Made by a program: the position numbers and the translations under genes
Notes under the pieces: model-generated
Seen by the model: only the letters and a program-made list of their open reading frames with translations
Database searches by the model: none
Told to the model about the DNA's origin: nothing
DNA from: Adhaeribacter pallidiroseus
Lineage (GTDB): Bacteria; Bacteroidota; Bacteroidia; Cytophagales; Hymenobacteraceae
NCBI RefSeq assembly: GCF_003340495.1
Contig: NZ_QASA01000001.1
Span: 5,332,001 to 5,396,000, forward strand
Length of the DNA: 64,000 nt
Reading direction: 5' to 3'
Shown: positions 25,861 through 34,189 of the stretch, one piece after another
How the letters are laid out: every line of letters starts with the position of its first letter
How positions within the stretch are numbered: position 1 is the stretch's first letter

Positions 25861-26766
25861 TTACAGATAAAAGTAACCTTCGCCTACCAACACGCTCTTC
25901 CCTCCTACTTTTACTTGAGTAATGGTATTACTTTCTTGGCCAATAGTTAAATACAATAAACTAGAGCGGCCCATTTCGTAGCCTTGCTCGCAAATGATAC
26001 TGGCAACTGGTTGATCAGGTACCAGTTTGTTTTGCACCAAATAACAACCCAAAGGACCGCAAGCACTGCCGGTGGCCGGATCTTCGGGGATGCCAAAAGC
26101 GGGCGCAAACATGCGACCATGTACCGTATTCGCCGGATCTTCTGTTTCCAGGGAAAACAAAAACACACTTTGGCTCCCGATGTGGCTCAATTGGTTTTCA
26201 AAAACTTCGTTACGTAAACGCGCTTTTTTTACCGCTGCCAGGTTCTTGAGGGGTACGCATAAATAAGGCACCCCGCACGACACCACTTGAGCGGGAGGCT
26301 CCGGTAAAATATCATCCAGGCTCAACGAAAGCAGATCGGCCAAAATTTGTACATCCGTCACAATCTCCCCGAATTTGGGTAAAGGTTGCGTCATGGTAAT
26401 CAAACCGAACTCTTTCCCATTTTGCTCGAAGGCTACGGGTATGTCGCCCACGCCTTCTTCAAAAACTAAAGGATTTCGGCCAGCGGTAGCCAGTAGTTCT
26501 TGTTGCAGCAACACGAAAGCGGTGCCAATGGTCGGGTGTCCGGCCATGGGTAACTCTTGGCCAGGCGTAAAAATGCGCAGTTTAATATCGTTCTGCGAAT
26601 TTACCGGTGGTAGTACAAATGTAGTTTCCGAAAGATTCAATTCTTTGGCAATCTGCTGCATTAAGTGCTCCGGCACTTCTTCGCCTTTTGGGAATACGGC
26701 TAATTGGTTACCACCAAAAACGCTATCTGTGAAAACATCTACCAAGTAGTAAAAAGCTTTTTTCAT
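25861..26766 (-). CDS. PhzF family phenazine biosynthesis isomerase-like protein
   Basis: 301-residue member of the PhzF/diaminopimelate-epimerase fold. Visible family motifs are FGGNQLAVFP, LNLSETTFVLPP with the catalytic Glu near residue 46, PMAGHPTIGTAFVL and EDPATGSACGPLGCYL. PhzF proper isomerises a phenazine precursor, but most members outside phenazine clusters have unknown substrates, and no phenazine genes are seen here. Its ATG overlaps the stop of the upstream trans-sulfuration gene by 4 bases, so it is translationally coupled and may act on a related metabolite. Confidence 0.9.
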   Translation of the reverse strand: MKKAFYYLVDVFTDSVFGGNQLAVFPKGEEVPEHLMQQIAKELNLSETTFVLPPVNSQNDIKLRIFTPGQELPMAGHPTIGTAFVLLQQELLATAGRNPLVFEEGVGDIPVAFEQNGKEFGLITMTQPLPKFGEIVTDVQILADLLSLSLDDILPEPPAQVVSCGVPYLCVPLKNLAAVKKARLRNEVFENQLSHIGSQSVFLFSLETEDPANTVHGRMFAPAFGIPEDPATGSACGPLGCYLVQNKLVPDQPVASIICEQGYEMGRSSLLYLTIGQESNTITQVKVGGKSVLVGEGYFYL

Positions 26767-27935
26767 GACTGGGTAGCGGCCAAAGCCTGATCAATGTCGG
26801 CAATTAAATCGTTCACGTTTTCTAAACCCACCGAAATTCGGATCAGACCCGCGGATATTCCTACCGCTTCCCGTTCGGCATCGGTTAGTTTTGAATGGGT
26901 GGTAGAAGCCGGGTGCGTGATAGTGGTGCGGGAGTCGCCGAGGTTAGCGGTTTTAGAAGCTATTTTTAAAGCATCCATAAACTTGTGCGCGCGGGCATAT
27001 CCGCCTTTTACTACAAACGTTACAATGCCACCGCCTTGCTTCATTTGCTTTTTCGCCAGTTCGTACTGCGGGTGCGAAGGTAAAAACGGGTACAATACGC
27101 TTTCCAGTTCCGTGTGCTGATCCAGGTGTTGCGCTATGGCCAAGGCGTTTTTGCAGTGCCGGTCCATGCGCACCGGTAAGGTTTCGAGGCTTTTGCTTAA
27201 GACCCAGGCGTTAAACGGCGACAATGCCGGACCGGTATGGCGCGCAAAAAAACGGATTTCGTCGATTAAATCCTGTCGACCTACAATAACGCCGCCTAAA
27301 ACCCGTCCTTGCCCGTCGATAAATTTAGTGGCCGAATGAATGACTAAGTCGGCCCCGTACGGAATGGGCGTTTGCAAATACGGTGTAGCAAAGCAATTAT
27401 CGACACTTAAGATTAGATTATGCTTCTTTTTTAAATTTCCGAGCCATTCCAGGTCAATTAGCTCTAACTGCGGGTTAGAAGGTGTTTCGATGTAGATGAG
27501 TTTAGTATTTGGCTGGATTAAGGCTTCCCATTCTTCGGGGCGAGCGGCATCGGCGTAGGTAAAGGTAATGCCCCACTTAGCTAATACTTTAGTTAGTAAT
27601 TGATGCGTAGAACCAAATACCGACCGTGAGGCCAAAATATGGTCGCCGGATTGCAGAATAGCGCCAAACCCCGAAAATACGGCTGACATACCCGTAGCAA
27701 ATGCAAATCCATCATCAGCACCTTCCAGCACGCACATTTTATCAATTAACTCCGACGTATTCGGGTTAGAAAAACGGGAATAGATGTTGCCTTCTATTTC
27801 GTCGGCAAATAAGGCGCGGCCTTGCTCGGCTGTTTCGAAGGTAAAGCTGGAGGTTAAATAAAGCGGCGTAGAGTGCTCGCGGAACTCGCTGCGTTTCGGG
27901 TAGGTGCGGATTACTTGGGTTTCTTTATCTTTCAC
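26763..27935 (-). CDS. metZ: Trans-sulfuration PLP enzyme, probable O-succinylhomoserine sulfhydrylase
   Basis: Cys/Met metabolism PLP-dependent enzyme of 390 residues. The PLP lysine is in VIHSATKFIDGQGRVLGG near residue 205. YSRFSNPNTSELIDKMCVLEGADDGFAFATGMSA and the IYIETPSNP motif are diagnostic. Within the family it most resembles MetZ, which makes homocysteine from O-succinylhomoserine and sulfide, but cystathionine gamma-synthase or lyase activity cannot be excluded. It lies downstream of sulfite reductase and siroheme genes on the same strand, a context that provides sulfide. It overlaps phzF by 4 bases. Confidence 0.85.
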   Translation of the reverse strand: MKDKETQVIRTYPKRSEFREHSTPLYLTSSFTFETAEQGRALFADEIEGNIYSRFSNPNTSELIDKMCVLEGADDGFAFATGMSAVFSGFGAILQSGDHILASRSVFGSTHQLLTKVLAKWGITFTYADAARPEEWEALIQPNTKLIYIETPSNPQLELIDLEWLGNLKKKHNLILSVDNCFATPYLQTPIPYGADLVIHSATKFIDGQGRVLGGVIVGRQDLIDEIRFFARHTGPALSPFNAWVLSKSLETLPVRMDRHCKNALAIAQHLDQHTELESVLYPFLPSHPQYELAKKQMKQGGGIVTFVVKGGYARAHKFMDALKIASKTANLGDSRTTITHPASTTHSKLTDAEREAVGISAGLIRISVGLENVNDLIADIDQALAATQS

Positions 27936-28233: not shown

Positions 28234-29781
28234 TTAAAAAATCATGGTGATGATGTTGCGCAGACTTACTACGATAACAATTACTCCTACTAAAATCATC
28301 ATGGTTTTTATGGGCAGTTTACGTGCCAGCACCGCCGCAATTGGAGCCGCCACTACCCCACCCAGTACCAGTCCGGCTACTACCTGCCAGTGATTAAAGC
28401 CCAGCAGTGTAATAAACGTAATAGAGCTGGCCAGCGACACAAAAAACTCCGCCAGGTTTACTGATCCAATGGTGTACAAAGGACTGCGGCCACTGGCAAT
28501 CAGCGACGAAGACACAATAGGTCCCCAACCGCCACCACCCACTGAATCCAGGAAGCCGCCAAATGTGGCGAGTACACCTAATTTCTTAATGGGTTTGCGC
28601 TTGGTAGTTTTCTTTATAGCTTTTTTGATAATAACGCCGCCCAGGAACAAAGTATAGCAAGCCACCAGCGGTTTAATGATATATAAATAGTTTTCGGCGG
28701 ATGAAAGAATGTAAGCTCCCAGAATAGCTCCTAATACACCGGGCAAGAGTAAATTTTTAAATAATTTGCTGTTTACATTCCTAAAACGCAGGTGCATGAG
28801 GCCCGATACGCCGCTGGTAAATATCTCGGAGGCGTGAACGCTGGCACTGGCTATAGCGGGTGGAATGCCCACCGTGAGTAAAAATGTGCTGGCGCTCACG
28901 CCGTAAGCCATGCCCAAAGCGCCATCAATCATTTGGGCCACAAAACCCGCCAGCATAAACCACAAAATGCTCGAATCAATTTCGCCGGCCAGGCGCAGCG
29001 CGTAACCGCCAATAATATCGAATGGCAAAAAACTAAACAGCAGATGCCCGGAAATCATCAAACCTAAGCAGGCAAAACCAATGAGTACCCGGTAGCGCCA
29101 GGAATGCTTGATGTGCTGCACCAAAGGTACCGGTGCGGGTTTAGAAACTTCGGTGATAGCGGGAGGAGCTGGTTTATCCACCAGCATAGCCGTGATGGTA
29201 TTTAGCTGCTTTACTTTTTCGGCAAAATCACCTTTTAGGCTGTTCCGGATTTGTTGCAGGTTATCCAGTACCGATTCCAATTCGTTCGGGAAAGTTTCGT
29301 TTAATACTTCTTTTACTCGTTTGGCTACCGTGGGCGATTTGCCGTTGGTAGAAATCGCAATTTTTAAATTTCCTTTCTGGACGATAGAACTCAGGTAAAA
29401 ATCGCATTCGTTAGGGGTATCAGCTACGTTGGCGAGCAACTTGCGAGCTTTGGCCTGTTGTTTAATTTCCCGGTTTAAAGCTTTATTATCGGTGGCCACA
29501 ATAACTAAATCCTTGCCTTCCAGATCCGTTATTTCGTAAGGTCTTTCGATTAAAGTAACCTGCGGGTAGGTTGCAACAAATTCCCGGATTTGCGGCAAAA
29601 TTTGCGTAGCTACCAAAGTAACTCTTGCTTCGGGACTGTTGCGGAGCACCGCCGTAACCTTTTCTTCGCCCACAAAGCCACCGCCTACAATTAAAGTATG
29701 CAGTTCGTGCAGCTTCAGAAAAACCGGGAATAAGTAATTCTCCTGTGCCGTAGCGGTGAGTGGGTTAGAGTCAGTTAACAC
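28234..29781 (-). CDS. Fusion: precorrin-2 dehydrogenase (siroheme synthase N-terminal domain) + TauE/SafE sulfite exporter
   Basis: 515 residues in two parts. Residues 1-200 match the CysG/Met8 N-terminal domain: LHTLIVGGGFVGEEKV is the NAD-binding loop, LVIVATDNKALN and ANVADTPNECDFYLSSIVQKGNLKIAISTNGKSP are family signatures. This domain makes sirohydrochlorin, and in Met8 also chelates iron, giving siroheme for sulfite reductase. After a Pro-rich linker, residues 225-515 form eight or so membrane helices of the TSUP family (AQMIDGALGMAYGVSAS; GGFLDSVGGGGWGPIVSSSL). TSUP proteins move sulfur-containing anions. The gene follows the sulfite reductase, so the fusion joins cofactor synthesis to transport of the substrate or product. 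Confidence 0.88.
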   Translation of the reverse strand: MLTDSNPLTATAQENYLFPVFLKLHELHTLIVGGGFVGEEKVTAVLRNSPEARVTLVATQILPQIREFVATYPQVTLIERPYEITDLEGKDLVIVATDNKALNREIKQQAKARKLLANVADTPNECDFYLSSIVQKGNLKIAISTNGKSPTVAKRVKEVLNETFPNELESVLDNLQQIRNSLKGDFAEKVKQLNTITAMLVDKPAPPAITEVSKPAPVPLVQHIKHSWRYRVLIGFACLGLMISGHLLFSFLPFDIIGGYALRLAGEIDSSILWFMLAGFVAQMIDGALGMAYGVSASTFLLTVGIPPAIASASVHASEIFTSGVSGLMHLRFRNVNSKLFKNLLLPGVLGAILGAYILSSAENYLYIIKPLVACYTLFLGGVIIKKAIKKTTKRKPIKKLGVLATFGGFLDSVGGGGWGPIVSSSLIASGRSPLYTIGSVNLAEFFVSLASSITFITLLGFNHWQVVAGLVLGGVVAAPIAAVLARKLPIKTMMILVGVIVIVVSLRNIITMIF

Positions 29782-29995: not shown

Positions 29996-32128
29996 TTAAG
30001 CGTTCAGCAAATCAACTAATACTTCCGGCCGTTTTACTTCGTCGCCGCGGAAGGTTTTAGCCGCCGTTAAGAAGCTATCGGCTTCGGTTAAGAATTGTAA
30101 CGCAAACTCCTGGCTAGGCTCGTTCTGATTGATTTGCAGCACATGCGTTTTAAAATCTGGCTCGAATGTAAAAGTACCATTGGCTACAAAGTTGGTATCA
30201 AAATCGTTGATAATGCCGATTTGCGTGTTACAGGCAATTCCTTTGCCCAACAACAAGGCTTTAGCGGTACCTACAAAAATGCTGTAGCTGTGGTAAATAG
30301 AATCGGCGTACATGCCATTTTTTAAAGCTTCTACGGCCCACTCCAGCTTTTCTTCTACCTCGTACAATAAAGTAGCCACCAGGTCAATCATGACGCCGGC
30401 GCACTCTCCTACGCCAATGGCCGTCGCGTATTCTTCTACGTGGCCCCAGTCTTTGTAATCATCGGGAGCCATGGTGCTTAAATCGGCCAGCGGTTTTAAT
30501 AACTGGTAGAAGTAGTTTTTGCCTTGGCGGTCGTAATACGAGTTAAAGTATTCGCCGTCTTGTGCGTTGGCTTCAAAGTCGTTGAACAAGAAGCGCAAAA
30601 TGTGCGGACCACGTTTGGTAGGCACTTTAATTACCCGGTCAGCTACGCGGCCTTCGCCGTTACCCAAGGTGCCACCACCCAACATTACCTGTAAAGCCGG
30701 CACTACCGCGGTGCCGTGTTTAATAGAACTGCCGTGAAAACCAATGTTGGCCAAACCATGTTGCCCGCAAGAGTTCATGCAACCACTAATTTTAATTTTT
30801 ATGTCGTGGTTATAGATTAAATCCGGAAATTCTTCTTTAATCATGTCTTCCAGCACTTCCGTAATGCCCATGCTGTTGGTAATACCTAAGTTACAAGTAT
30901 CGGTGCCGGGGCAAGTAGTAATATCGGCAGTGCTGTCGAAACCCGGTTTGGCTAAACCTAACTTGTTTAATTCCTGGAAGAAATAAGGTAAAGCTTCCGG
31001 GCGAATGTATTTAAAAAGTAGGCCTTGGTTAGCCGTAATCCGGATATCGTCGGCGGCAAAATCTTGCACCAAAGCGGCTAGTTTACGCGCCTCAGCGGTT
31101 TTAATATCGCCCATTAACACGCGGGCTTTTACCGAGTAAAATCCTTTTTGCTTTTGCTCGGTTACATTGGTTTTTAACCAGGCTTCGTAATGGTTCTGAT
31201 TTAAAATTTCAACGGCCGGAATCTCGCGAGCGGGCGCTGGTTCCGGTTGCTGTACGCTGTTGCGGTCGATGGTATAGGTCTTGCTTTTGATGGCGGTACG
31301 TTCCTGGGCCACTAAGTCCATGAAAGCTTCAAAGCCAATTTTAGCAATTAAGTATTTCAAACGCGCTTTGTTGCGGCTGGTGCGTTCGCCGTGGCGGTCG
31401 AATACCCGGATAATGGCTTCGACTAACGGAATAACCTGGTCTTCGGGTAAAAACTCGTAACCTAGTTTGGCCAGCATGGGTTGCGCGCCAAGCCCTCCAC
31501 CCAATACTACCCGGAAACCGCGTACTTCTTCGCCGTTTTCAATTTTTACTTTCGGTACAAATCCTACATCGTGCATGTAGGCCATAGCGGTATCGGCTTC
31601 GGAGGCCGAGAACGCAATTTTAAATTTCCGGCCCATGTCCTGGCATATTGGGTTGCGCACAAAATACCGGAAGGTTTCGTAAGCGTACGGCGATACATCA
31701 AACGGTTCTTCGGGGTTAATGCCCGCATCATAAGAAGCTGTTACGTTCCGTACGGTGTTCCCGCAAGCTTCGCGCAAAGTAATATCATCTTCGGCCAGTT
31801 TCGCCCATAGTTCGGGGGTGCGATCCAGGCTTACAAAGTGAATCTGAATATCCTGACGCGTAGTTAAGTGCAGGTTTTTGCTCGCGTACTCATCCGATAC
31901 ATCGGCAATTTTAAGTAATTGCTTTACGGTTAAACGGCCGAAAGGCAATTTTATACGCACCATTTGCACGCCGGGCTGGCGCTGCCCGTAAATACCGCGC
32001 GTTAAACGCAGGCTCCGGAATTTTTCGTCGGCGATCTGGCCGCCCCGGAATAGACGTATTTTTTTATCGAGATCAATAATCTCTTTGGAAACCAACGGAT
32101 TTTCAAATTCGGTCCGAAAACTTAACAT
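29996..32128 (-). CDS. Sulfite/nitrite reductase with C-terminal HEPN domain
   Basis: 710-residue siroheme and [4Fe-4S] reductase. The N-terminal ferredoxin-like half-domain (VRIKLPFGRLTVKQLLKIADVS) and the first siroheme-binding stretch (REACGNTVRNVTAS) are present. The cluster ligands are in TTCPGTDTCNLGI near residue 406 and ISGCMNSCGQHG near 449. Six-electron reduction of sulfite to sulfide is more likely than nitrite reduction, given the siroheme/TSUP and metZ neighbours. From about residue 575 it carries a helical HEPN-like extension (EEKLEWAVEALKNGMYADSIYHSYSIFVGTAKALL), which the usual 550-residue enzymes lack. Expression is probably governed by two cysteine-rich leader peptides and attenuators at 32164-32480. 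Confidence 0.9.
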   Translation of the reverse strand: MLSFRTEFENPLVSKEIIDLDKKIRLFRGGQIADEKFRSLRLTRGIYGQRQPGVQMVRIKLPFGRLTVKQLLKIADVSDEYASKNLHLTTRQDIQIHFVSLDRTPELWAKLAEDDITLREACGNTVRNVTASYDAGINPEEPFDVSPYAYETFRYFVRNPICQDMGRKFKIAFSASEADTAMAYMHDVGFVPKVKIENGEEVRGFRVVLGGGLGAQPMLAKLGYEFLPEDQVIPLVEAIIRVFDRHGERTSRNKARLKYLIAKIGFEAFMDLVAQERTAIKSKTYTIDRNSVQQPEPAPAREIPAVEILNQNHYEAWLKTNVTEQKQKGFYSVKARVLMGDIKTAEARKLAALVQDFAADDIRITANQGLLFKYIRPEALPYFFQELNKLGLAKPGFDSTADITTCPGTDTCNLGITNSMGITEVLEDMIKEEFPDLIYNHDIKIKISGCMNSCGQHGLANIGFHGSSIKHGTAVVPALQVMLGGGTLGNGEGRVADRVIKVPTKRGPHILRFLFNDFEANAQDGEYFNSYYDRQGKNYFYQLLKPLADLSTMAPDDYKDWGHVEEYATAIGVGECAGVMIDLVATLLYEVEEKLEWAVEALKNGMYADSIYHSYSIFVGTAKALLLGKGIACNTQIGIINDFDTNFVANGTFTFEPDFKTHVLQINQNEPSQEFALQFLTEADSFLTAAKTFRGDEVKRPEVLVDLLNA

Positions 32129-32163
32129 GGTATACTATTTAAATCTTTTATCTTTTTTAAATT

Positions 32164-32194
32164 AAAAAGGCCTTCTCTTACTGGAGAAAGGCCC
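32164..32194 (-). terminator. Proximal attenuator hairpin before sulfite reductase
   Basis: On the minus strand, gggcctttctc (5' arm, near 32194-32184) pairs with gagaaggcc (3' arm) with one bulged base, followed by TTTTTAATT. It lies 35 bases before the sulfite reductase ATG and after leader peptide 2. Its 5' arm is also complementary to the end of the leader 2 ORF (AGAAA at 32248-32244 and GGCC at 32239-32236), which would form an alternative, antiterminating pairing. Confidence 0.75.
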
Positions 32195-32228
32195 GCGCAA
32201 AACTATGGATTCCGCAGAACGCAATAGC

Positions 32229-32285
32229 TTATACCGGCCGATCTTTCTGAACGGCGAAACAACACATACAACAACAGGAAGCCAT
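32229..32285 (-). CDS. Cysteine-rich leader peptide 2 (proximal)
   Basis: Short ORF encoding MASCCCMCCFAVQKDRPV: 18 residues, five of them Cys within a six-residue window. An in-frame ATG at 32297 would add four residues. It lies upstream of the sulfite reductase gene and is followed by a terminator-like hairpin at 32164-32194. Such clustering of one amino acid's codons before an attenuator is the signature of ribosome-mediated attenuation; cysteine is the end product of sulfite reduction. The sequence over codons 13-17 (Gln-Lys-Asp-Arg-Pro) can pair with the 5' arm of the hairpin. Translation is inferred, not shown. Confidence 0.75.
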   Translation of the reverse strand: MASCCCMCCFAVQKDRPV

Positions 32286-32335
32286 TACATTTAACATATT
32301 ATTTATATCGTTTTAATAGAATTAGTCCGGAATTA

Positions 32336-32369
32336 AAAAGGCCTTTTCTGGTTGCAGAAAAGGCCTTTT
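32336..32369 (-). terminator. Distal attenuator hairpin (15-bp perfect stem)
   Basis: Perfect arms 32336-32350 and 32355-32369 around a four-base loop, followed on the minus strand by TTTTTAATT. It lies 21 bases after the stop codon of leader peptide 1 and would end transcription before leader 2 and the reductase. The segment GAAAGGC at 32401-32395, over the last codons of leader 1, can pair with its 5' arm instead. Confidence 0.85.
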
Positions 32370-32390
32370 CGTAATTATATCAATTCACAA

Positions 32391-32480
32391 TTAAGCCTTT
32401 CCTGCCGGAGCCATACAACAGAAACCACAGCAAGCTGCGGGTACCCGATTGTTGGCCGAAGAAAAAGCGTTTGTGTTCAT
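32391..32480 (-). CDS. Cysteine-rich leader peptide 1 (distal)
   Basis: 29-codon ORF starting with ATG at 32480. Residues 17-23 are CCGFCCM, with four Cys codons (TGC, TGT, TGT, TGT) in a six-residue window and no other Cys. The stop is followed after 21 bases by a strong intrinsic terminator. The pattern repeats that of leader peptide 2 about 100 bases downstream, including the CC-x-CC arrangement with adjacent Met and Phe. The candidate -7 element TATATTTA (minus strand, 32506-32499) lies just upstream. As with leader 2, its function as a cysteine sensor is inferred from codon content and position. Confidence 0.75.
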   Translation of the reverse strand: MNTNAFSSANNRVPAACCGFCCMAPAGKA

Positions 32481-32689
32481 AATCTTAATTTGGTGCCGTA
32501 AATATATAAGTATGTTACGAACTTTCAGCGGCTTAGATGTATTTTTTTAAAAATCCGGTGAAATATTGCAAGTTATGCAAGCAAATAACATTTCTGTTGT
32601 TGAATTGTTCCGCGAAGCCCTGAAATTATCCCGCTGGTATTAAAAATTTTTAAAAAAGTTGAAGCGGTAGGCTCCTGGAACCTGATAAA
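32481..32689. other. Intergenic region upstream of the leader peptides
   Basis: Holds the presumed promoter of the cysteine-leader/sulfite reductase transcript on the minus strand; TATATTTA at 32506-32499 is close to the TAnnTTTG consensus. No ORF is supported. The other end follows the stop of the M43 protease gene, also minus strand. Confidence 0.45.
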
Positions 32690-34189
32690 CTACCGCGTTA
32701 TTACTAATTTTTTAACGGAAGTACTGCCATCTTTATACCATAAACGGCAGGTATACAAGCCATTTGCTACCGCAGGTAAGTTAATTGTAACGAAATTGGC
32801 GGCTGTAGTTTGGGTAAGTATTATTTGGCCGACGCTGTTTATAATCTGGATTTGCTGGAGTTCTTTATTGGCCGGTGCTTCAATGTTTAACTGATCCTCC
32901 GCTGGATTGGGATAGAGAATAGCTTCAGTGCCCGTTACCCGGATGTATTGCGTTTTGGTAACCGCATCGGACACTGAATTAAAGCTAGCAGTTAGTGTAA
33001 CGGTATAAGTTCCAGGCTGATCGTAACGAACCAACGGGTTTTGCTGATTAGAGCTTGCCACATTCGCCCCTTCAAAAGTCCAGTTCCATTGATTGGCTTG
33101 CACGCCCACGCTGGCATCTTCGAATTGCACCGTAGTGCCGGCCACAATAATCGTATCAGATACTACAAAGTCGGCGGTTAAAGGTACGCTGCAAACTACG
33201 GCAGTAGTTAATATATTCTGGCGAACCGTACTCAAAATACTTTGCATGTATTCGGCCTGGCCCTGGGTAAATAAATTCATGCAAGCATCGTCGGTATAAT
33301 CCAGGTAATTTTGGTACATGTCGCCGCCTTGTAAACTGTTGTTACAAGAGGTTACGGCACTCGTTGGGCAGCCATTACTGGCATCTTCCTGGTTAGGCGT
33401 ATCGGCAATATCGTCGGAGTCGGTACAGCTGGCATCATCCGGGCCCCAGATATGTTGCAAGCCCAACCAATGGCCTACTTCGTGGGTGCCCGTGCGGCCC
33501 AAATTGTAACTAGAAGCAAACGGATTTACCGGGGGTTGCCCCACGGTGGTGTAATCCAGCACTACGCCATCGGTTTCGGTTGGTCCGCCGGGGTATTGCG
33601 AGTAACCCAGCGTTTCGCCCGATAGATTGCACACCCAAATATTTAGGTAACGGTCCGAATCCCAGGCATCTTGCCCGGAGAATCTCGAAAACTTCACGTC
33701 ATCGCCCAAGTCGAAACCTGTTGCGGTGGTACTTTTTCGGGTAATGCCGGTAGTCATTCTGCCAAGCGGATCGCGAGTTGCCAAGCAAAACTGAATGCGG
33801 GTGTCGGCGGCGATGCTTTTAAACTGCGGTAAAGTTTGCGTGGAATCAGCGTTCTGACGGCGATAATCCGTGTTCAAGACGTCTAGTTGCGAGAGTATTT
33901 GCTCCGTAGAAATGTTCTCGCGGGTGGTACGGTATACGATATGAAATACCACGGGTACCACAATAACCGGTTGCTGTAAACGGGCCCGTTTTTTTTGCTG
34001 CTGGTAGGCTTGCGCCTGGCGTTTTACTTTTTGCTGCTGGGCCGCCATGCCCGGTATACGCTTTTGCAGTTGTTGGGTAACCTCGTTGGTAGCGCATTGT
34101 CTCGACGGAGCTACTTGCTGCGCTTTTACAGAATGGGTAAATACTAACCAGATAAAAATTAAAAAAAAGGAATGTGCTCGCAACTGCAT
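32690..34189 (-). CDS. Secreted M43-type zinc metalloprotease with PKD and T9SS sorting domain
   Basis: 499-residue exported protease. The Sec signal ends at SVKAQQ. The catalytic zinc motif THEVGHWLGLQHIWG near residue 233 is the extended HExxHxxGxxH of metzincins of the pappalysin (M43) family, and NYLDYTDDACMNLFT holds the Met-turn. A PKD-like domain follows (SDTIIVAGTTVQFEDASVG, then NPLVRYDQPGTYTVTLTAS). The last 75 residues (ILYPNPAEDQLNIEAP to GSTSVKKLVITR) are a type IX secretion sorting domain, so the enzyme is delivered to the cell surface or medium. A Gln-rich, basic stretch after the signal is probably a propeptide. Confidence 0.9.
   Translation of the reverse strand: MQLRAHSFFLIFIWLVFTHSVKAQQVAPSRQCATNEVTQQLQKRIPGMAAQQQKVKRQAQAYQQQKKRARLQQPVIVVPVVFHIVYRTTRENISTEQILSQLDVLNTDYRRQNADSTQTLPQFKSIAADTRIQFCLATRDPLGRMTTGITRKSTTATGFDLGDDVKFSRFSGQDAWDSDRYLNIWVCNLSGETLGYSQYPGGPTETDGVVLDYTTVGQPPVNPFASSYNLGRTGTHEVGHWLGLQHIWGPDDASCTDSDDIADTPNQEDASNGCPTSAVTSCNNSLQGGDMYQNYLDYTDDACMNLFTQGQAEYMQSILSTVRQNILTTAVVCSVPLTADFVVSDTIIVAGTTVQFEDASVGVQANQWNWTFEGANVASSNQQNPLVRYDQPGTYTVTLTASFNSVSDAVTKTQYIRVTGTEAILYPNPAEDQLNIEAPANKELQQIQIINSVGQIILTQTTAANFVTINLPAVANGLYTCRLWYKDGSTSVKKLVITR

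Follow-up and report, generated by a model that had tools for sequence, protein, structure and literature searches.

Organization of the locus

The window analysed here, a stretch of 64,000 nucleotides, is located in the genome of Adhaeribacter pallidiroseus (6.43 Mb), which was compared with seven further Adhaeribacter genomes, giving eight in the genus. It harbors a row of minus-strand genes with a metalloprotease-like gene at its flank:

32690-34189, metalloprotease-like gene with a T9SS sorting domain, flanking the leader region
29996..32128, minus strand, nitrite/sulfite reductase-family hemoprotein of 710 aa (Pfam NIR_SIR and NIR_SIR_ferr)
28234..29781, minus strand, fusion of a siroheme synthase N-terminal domain and a TauE/SafE transporter domain (Pfam/NCBIfam-type domain matches)
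26763..27935, minus strand, O-succinylhomoserine sulfhydrylase of the methionine/homocysteine branch (PRK08133 match at its cut-off)
25861..26766, minus strand, PhzC/PhzF-like protein, its gene overlapping the sulfhydrylase gene by 4 nt

Every NCBIfam match of the 710-aa product lies under the cut-off of the model concerned. Gene order, strand and the siroheme- and sulfur-related neighbours suggest that it is an assimilatory sulfite reductase, and on the same grounds the reductase, siroheme/TauE and sulfhydrylase genes probably form one operon, to which the PhzC/PhzF-like gene presumably also belongs. With the siroheme/TauE fusion and the sulfhydrylase encoded downstream of the reductase, the row would run from sulfite via sulfide to homocysteine.

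The minus-strand interval between the metalloprotease-like and reductase genes contains two short open reading frames (ORFs) with clustered Cys codons and two hairpins with U runs. The first-pass annotation of this DNA had described two such ORFs ahead of sulfite reductase, each with an intrinsic terminator after it, and this arrangement is confirmed in the sequence. The features, all on the minus strand, are as follows:

32499..32506, minus strand, candidate promoter -7 box, TATATTTA, 5′ of leader 1
32391..32480, minus strand, leader peptide 1 ORF, MNTNAFSSANNRVPAACCGFCCMAPAGKA, ATG start, 29 aa
32454..32468, minus strand, possible protector strand, approximately spanning the codons for AFSSA
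32415..32432, minus strand, Cys codon cluster 1, CCGFCC followed by Met
32393..32405, minus strand, predicted 5′ antiterminator strand of unit 1, GCAGGAAAGGCUU, formed by the final codons of leader 1 together with its stop (partner 32354-32366)
32336..32369, minus strand, intrinsic terminator 1, perfect 15-bp stem with a 4-nt loop, kept in the three closest relatives
32229..32297, minus strand, leader peptide 2 ORF, MLNVMASCCCMCCFAVQKDRPV, 22 aa, ATG at 32297
32259..32276, minus strand, Cys codon cluster 2, CCCMCC
32185..32244, minus strand, proposed bipartite antiterminator of unit 2 (RNAalifold, window plus three relatives)
32164..32194, minus strand, intrinsic terminator 2, bulged stem and U-tract (about 32164)

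A CC cluster, defined as CCC or as two CC pairs at most two residues apart, is present in 3/733 ATG-initiated ORFs of 6-70 aa on both strands of the window, two of the three being leaders 1 and 2, and Cys accounts for 45/4498 residues (1.0%) in ten proteins of the window. An Rfam scan of positions 31800-32900 with E-values up to 5 returned eleven matches, all below the gathering score and none to a T-box or SAM family, and a T-box or SAM riboswitch at the leader region was rejected on this basis.

Two leader units in series

Terminator 1 is found where the first-pass annotation had placed it, with the perfect stem claimed. Its U run sits mostly within the stem (AAAA:UUUU), with the U-tract at about 32335. 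That annotation had also noted complementarity between the end of leader 1 (GAAAGGC, 32401-32395) and the 5′ arm of the terminator, which is real and was understated in its extent: the duplex comprises 13 bp, between 32393-32405 and 32354-32366, with a predicted energy of -21.5 kcal/mol (z -4.3; equalled in 0/200 shuffles). The fold of the whole segment gives a z of -7.6. Together these predictions argue strongly for a mutually exclusive antiterminator in unit 1. The possible protector strand would pair with the antiterminator strand if the leader were untranslated, and its pairing in the window is moderately supported (z -2.0; 10/200 shuffles equal).

The second unit is less clear-cut. The first-pass annotation had placed leader 2 at 32229-32285; the end stands, while the start is better taken as the ATG at 32297, because the internal in-frame ATG at 32285 is absent from the three closest relatives and the upstream ATG is kept. 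Terminator 2 was likewise located at 32164-32194 in that annotation and is present there. A simple duplex between the end of leader 2 and the terminator arm, as had been proposed, is no better than shuffles (108/200 equal; 115/200 in another run), and 11/60 shuffles equal the whole-segment fold. The GGCC match named in that proposal does form part of the bipartite helix predicted from the window and three relatives, in which 32242-32244 pairs with 32185-32187 (AGA), 32236-32239 with 32190-32193 (GGCC) and, as an inner helix, 32223-32230 with 32200-32207, the outermost pair of the latter being broken in the window sequence. The conserved helix has 19 pairs, one of them changed on both sides among these four sequences. 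The antiterminator of unit 2 is thus the weakest element of the system, moderately supported by folding and alignment.

A sigma-A -7 box with the consensus TAnnTTTG at positions -12 to -5 is given for Bacteroidota in the accessible text of PMC9723704. The box at 32499..32506 deviates from it by one mismatch and would place the transcription start near 32494, which leaves 14 nt up to leader 1. The four closest genomes all have TATATTTA, L006 and L008 have TATCTTTA, and L031 has TATATTTG. A sigma-70 promoter scan was set aside as unsuited to Bacteroidota. By eye, no such -7 box is recognizable in the 22-40 nt spacer between terminator 1 and leader 2 of eleven tandems, and the two units are therefore read as lying in series, presumably served by a single promoter and likely to act one after the other on the same signal. 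When the possible protector hairpin was evaluated in L001-L008, L031 and L204-L207 (unit 2 of L005 left unscored), at most 20/200 shuffles were equal in 8/12 first units versus 2/10 second units. As the hairpin occurs mainly in first units and seldom in second ones, the two units may differ in their untranslated state.

Distribution of Cys leaders upstream of the reductase genes

A leader was scored where an ATG-initiated ORF of 8-60 aa, at most 600 nt upstream, contained within seven residues CC with at least three Cys, or CC with at least four Cys plus Met. Some second leaders that pass are modest ones, such as those of L010 and L022. Among 150 genomes of the family searched, 93 gave any match to the reductase. 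The 30 with an orthologue were used (63-100% identity, window included; one cut by a contig end), and the remaining 63 gave weak matches only (E 2.6e-14 or worse among the matches listed). A Cys-cluster ORF, kept in frame, is located upstream of the reductase gene in all 30 loci and two such ORFs in 21/30, as against 2/30 and 0/30, respectively, on the antisense strand and means of 1.15 and 0.02 in dinucleotide shuffles. Within the genus, both units and their hairpins are kept in seven of the eight genomes. A. aquaticus (L007) has a single unit, whose antiterminator strand is similar to the one found in unit 1 of its relatives.

In a class-wide sample the reductase was found in 68/295 genomes (E <= 1e-100), and the 67 loci besides the window were read, of which four had upstream stretches shorter than 800 bases due to contig ends and some had gene starts extrapolated from partial alignments. 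Thirty of the 67 have a Cys leader and ten have two (antisense strand: 1/67 and 0/67; shuffle means: 1.02 and 0.00). By the same criterion 37/67 have none, 20 of which have more than 150 nt free upstream. An operon-internal position was considered as the reason for the absence and fails to account for most cases, since only 8/37 leaderless loci have a frame on the same strand that ends no more than 60 nt away. No leader was detected in the four loci from other families of the same order (L074, L075, L077 and L078), so that the leader is universal in the family sample and patchy beyond it. Conservation of CC-rich ORFs in relatives across the Cytophagales, suggested as a check in the first-pass annotation, accordingly holds in the family (30/30) and breaks down in these four loci.

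A further set of 80 named loci, two of which were too short, shares members with the earlier sets and does not provide an independent sample. Leaders are present in 29 of the 78 remaining loci, with two in seven, and 49/78 have none, 41 of these with more than 150 nt of room. Two leader-plus-terminator units in one reductase locus were counted in 13 loci from six families (f1, f12, f25, f26, f39 and f46). In Chitinophaga (L138, L142, L146, L148, L150, L157, L162 and L164) the leaders have a short MG(N/Y) start and end, for example, in CCW..STD or SMTQEACAL, possibly representing a lineage-specific form of the same switch.

The 22 loci of Pontibacter and allies (L009-L030; group g3) all have poly-Cys leaders, with a second leader in 14/22. 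Runs of up to ten consecutive Cys are found here (L021), and seven of the 14 second leaders have MRAC-stop as their end, some 115 nt ahead of the reductase gene.

Additional Cys leaders in the genome

A second Cys tandem is encoded elsewhere in the same genome (L102 3420-7574, minus strand; G000:C1 3280419-3284573) upstream of a PALP-family gene, which we take to be a cysteine synthase. It consists of MMKANNTFSVVNNALAGCCCAAFTLSERFAVL and a terminator, MNGQFIINYAACCCCCACPRGSLDAAAC and a terminator, followed by the PALP-family gene and genes for a ThiF-rhodanese protein and a PAPS-reductase-family protein. Orthologs of this locus (E <= 1e-80) were identified in 4/100 family genomes searched, the window's genome included, all within the genus, and both leaders and both terminators are present in all four; the other four members of the genus have no ortholog at this threshold. 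A -7 box, TACCTTTG, lies ahead of leader 1 in 4/4 of these tandems, and the antiterminators of all eight units are equalled by at most 3/200 shuffles. Exchanges between TGC and TGT at the Cys codons are few, with one per close pair in unit 1 of the cysteine-synthase tandem and none in unit 2, and in unit 1 of the reductase locus these codons (TGC/TGT) are invariant in the four closest genomes.

A third Cys leader (L123 635-700, plus strand; G000:C1 5034-5099), with CCYMCCC followed by S-stop and counterparts in L209, L210 and L211, precedes genes for a protein without an assigned family, a 1-Cys peroxiredoxin and a TauE transporter. It was found in four of the eight genus genomes, gene starts having been extrapolated in the other four. 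A scan of the genome for the Cys-codon pattern gave 229 places versus 88 in the reversed control. With about the first 100 of these places listed, 20 stretches were read, yielding at least nine short ORFs with CC clusters, of which one (L103) was taken further; the leaders described here are thus a minimum estimate of the regulon.

Mutually exclusive pairing across leader units

Pairing between leader ends and terminators was evaluated in 48 leader-plus-terminator units, 46 upstream of the reductase gene and two upstream of the cysteine-synthase gene. The segment following the last Cys codon has a median pairing energy of -16.2 kcal/mol with the 5′ arm of the terminator versus -6.9 kcal/mol with the 3′ arm. 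Against shuffled sequences the mean z is -3.07, and in 36/48 units at most 10/200 shuffles are equal. For folding, unit 2 of L005, the terminator of which had escaped the caller, was added to give 49 units. The predicted sequestration of the 5′ arm has a median of 0.75 if the ribosome stalls on the final Cys codon, of 0.06 if it sits on the stop codon and of 0.48 if the spacer is shuffled, which supports the mutually exclusive hairpins that the first-pass annotation had proposed to verify by folding the two states. Compared with 60 shuffles, at most three are as stable in 37/49 units and at most three reach equal sequestration in 27/49, while 3/49 units retain a sequestration of at least 0.5 with the ribosome at the stop codon. 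Pairing begins at a median of 11 nt past the last Cys codon, and within 6-17 nt in 43/49 units versus 33% of shuffles. This onset fits the ribosome footprint, quoted as 12-15 nt from the P site (PMC3641672, accessible text).

Leader ends also pair better with their own terminator arms, at an average of -15.0 kcal/mol versus -10.8 kcal/mol with arms taken from units outside the family. When each of 16 families was represented by a single unit, drawn 300 times with 200 permutations per draw, no permutation matched the pairing of leaders with their own arms. Twenty-five of the 49 units fall within the top 10% when set against their own pairings with foreign arms, and five do not exceed the foreign average (L038, L050, a single unit of L083 and both of L098, a locus that includes masked bases), suggesting that about half of the units carry the own-arm signal strongly. 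The final codons of several leaders (GKA-stop, ERF and ERL) are themselves the antiterminator strands, which can explain their conservation without a function of the peptide.

A proposed attenuation mechanism and its alternatives

The conservation in the family and the mutually exclusive pairing over many units favour the reading put forward in the first-pass annotation, namely ribosome-mediated attenuation. We consider it very likely, on the evidence of sequence comparison and predicted folding, that two transcription attenuators in series, both reading Cys codons, control the sulfite-reduction row of Adhaeribacter. Weighing against it are the shuffle-level antiterminator of the window's unit 2; unit 2 of L004, in which the predicted sequestration of the arm is higher with the ribosome at the stop codon (0.60) than with it stalled (0.54); the five units that pair with their own arms no better than with foreign ones; the single unit of A. 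aquaticus; the loci with no leader; the loci of Pontibacter and allies, where no hairpin was called after a leader; the partial support for the protector hairpin; and the scarcity of TGC/TGT exchanges at Cys codons. Transcription would begin at one promoter ahead of leader 1. With Cys-tRNA plentiful, the ribosome would reach the stop codon of leader 1 and cover the antiterminator strand, allowing terminator 1 to form. With Cys-tRNA scarce, the ribosome would stall just short of this strand, the 5′ arm of the terminator would be trapped and RNA polymerase would continue, next meeting the Cys codons of leader 2 and terminator 2, where the same test would be repeated. Overall read-through would then be the product of two read-through probabilities. 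In the cell, the leaders would thereby respond to cysteine through stalling on uncharged tRNA-Cys and termination, and the effects of the two units would multiply.

It is conceivable, if unlikely, that only unit 1 functions as a Cys attenuator, unit 2 being just a terminator, or else a copy that has decayed or is tuned differently, in which case there would be no multiplication. The antiterminators of unit 2 in L003-L005 are close to shuffle level, as in the window; A. aquaticus, moreover, manages with its single unit. Two Cys leaders and two terminators are nevertheless retained in the other seven Adhaeribacter genomes, the second units of L006, L008 and L031 have strong antiterminators, as do those of the four cysteine-synthase tandems (0-3/200 shuffles equal), and folding predicts the bipartite antiterminator of unit 2 in three relatives as well as in the window, all of which argues for two working units.

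The amino acid that is sensed also requires consideration, since Met codons accompany the Cys clusters. In 34 leaders from the class sample chosen on Cys alone, Met constitutes 75/229 of the non-Cys residues within three positions of the cluster versus 26/562 elsewhere; in 51 family leaders chosen in the same manner, the counts are 42/278 and 21/1223 (start Met left out throughout). Clusters interleaved with or flanked by Met, such as MMCMMMCCCM, were observed in L043, L052-L055, L061, L083, L086, L088, L091, L092 and L095. The leaders may thus report both sulfur amino acids, with a possible Met response in addition to that to Cys; such a mixture suggests that one leader may read both, matching a gene row that feeds both.

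The Met enrichment could also mean that stalling is set by methionine supply, or by an influence of metals or redox state on the nascent peptide, rich as it is in Cys and Met, rather than by the charging of tRNA-Cys. In a nascent-protein copper sensor of other bacteria, Cys residues do the sensing. Translational copper sensing by a nascent exported protein is known elsewhere (PMC9973294). Such an explanation appears rather improbable here, given that the gene row makes sulfide and homocysteine, that the spacing within clusters varies (CCGFCC, CCCMCC, CCCC and CCCCCC), which the counting of codons fits better than a single metal site does, and that the codons at the leader C-termini (GKA, ERF, ERL) double as antiterminator strands.

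Alternatively, the leaders could act mainly at the level of translation or via Rho, as proposed for mycobacterial poly-Cys leaders, with the hairpins being secondary. No hairpin-after-leader unit was called in any of the 22 loci of Pontibacter and allies, where folding of six and alignment of ten revealed no clear terminator, and no U-tract terminator was called downstream of the third Cys leader (L208-L211). The leaders of Pontibacter and allies may indeed use Rho or translation, by analogy with what has been suggested for actinobacterial Cys leaders. For the Adhaeribacter reductase locus we hold this to be a poor prospect, in view of its U-tract hairpins with matched antiterminators and of the match between leader ends and terminator arms across 16 families. 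Finally, although a small gene would look much the same, with a terminator after a short Cys-rich frame, it is scarcely credible that the ORFs encode small trans-acting Cys-rich proteins and that the hairpins are the ordinary terminators of their genes, as the peptides vary between genera outside the Cys cluster while clusters and RNA complementarity persist, neither leader peptide has an NCBIfam match, and leader ends match their own terminators better than foreign ones.

Relation to known leader-peptide systems

The serial Cys attenuators proposed here resemble those of the trp and his operons, which are the classical leader-peptide attenuators, in having a short ORF with codons for the end product, a terminator, an overlapping antiterminator and a stall point just before the antiterminator strand. 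They differ in reading cysteine, and possibly methionine, in comprising two consecutive units and in their Bacteroidota host. Clustered end-product codons, a terminator and an overlapping antiterminator are given as hallmarks of leader-peptide attenuators in the accessible text of PMC3641672. The uORFC-8-2 motif upstream of cysS in the Rhodobacterales also combines adjacent Cys codons in an upstream ORF with a subsequent intrinsic terminator, its attenuation being predicted from sequence (PMC8632094, accessible text), as is that described here; it differs in having one unit and two Cys codons, and in preceding a tRNA-synthetase gene in Alphaproteobacteria. The leaders of mycobacterial and other actinobacterial cys operons likewise contain runs of Cys codons ahead of sulfur genes; for them the accessible text reports no conserved terminator hairpins (PMC1262725), and among them the poly-Cys leader of M. 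smegmatis is reported to exert translation attenuation (Canestrari et al. 2020, as cited in PMC13236596). Unlike this mycobacterial type, both Adhaeribacter leaders are followed by U-tract hairpins.

In Salmonella mgtCBR, too, a single leader RNA contains two leader ORFs and two serial attenuators; there the tandem responds to two signals, ATP and proline, and, according to the accessible text, lacks intrinsic terminators (PMC3641672). In Adhaeribacter, by contrast, the same codons occur twice (Cys with Met, the signal being judged from codons only) and each leader has an intrinsic terminator. The rimP-leader of some Gammaproteobacteria, with tandem terminators, one of which has a potential antiterminator (PMC2965389), is similar in having two premature terminators in one leader; Cys leader peptides are not mentioned for it in the accessible text. 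Tandem leader-ORF attenuators as such are already known from mgtCBR.

The Bacteroid-trp motif is a Trp leader. It is listed in a table of PMC2864571; furthermore, leader-peptide attenuation is suspected before amino-acid operons in F. psychrophilum (PMC9723704) and leader-peptide control is predicted for short ORFs of B. thetaiotaomicron (PMC7366714). These predictions concern the same phylum and likewise place suspected attenuation before amino-acid or other genes, while neither a cysteine leader nor sulfite reductase nor tandem units are mentioned in the accessible parts of the three reports. Among the papers listed by searches of the open-access literature, none was found that, judged by title, opening of the abstract or accessible text, reports a Bacteroidota Cys leader or such a same-signal tandem.

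More broadly, and tentatively, we suggest as a possibility short of probable that many Bacteroidota families have a sulfur regulon that needs no dedicated regulator protein, in which Cys/Met attenuators, repeatedly doubled on one signal, set the operons for sulfite reduction and cysteine synthesis, giving a steep, multiplied response with units that differ in their untranslated default. If the proposed mechanism holds true, it would provide a cysteine-responsive transcription attenuator with intrinsic terminators for the Bacteroidota, where leader-peptide control has so far only been hinted at in the accessible literature. It would also represent a natural pair of attenuators on the same signal, allowing one to ask whether doubling multiplies the dynamic range.
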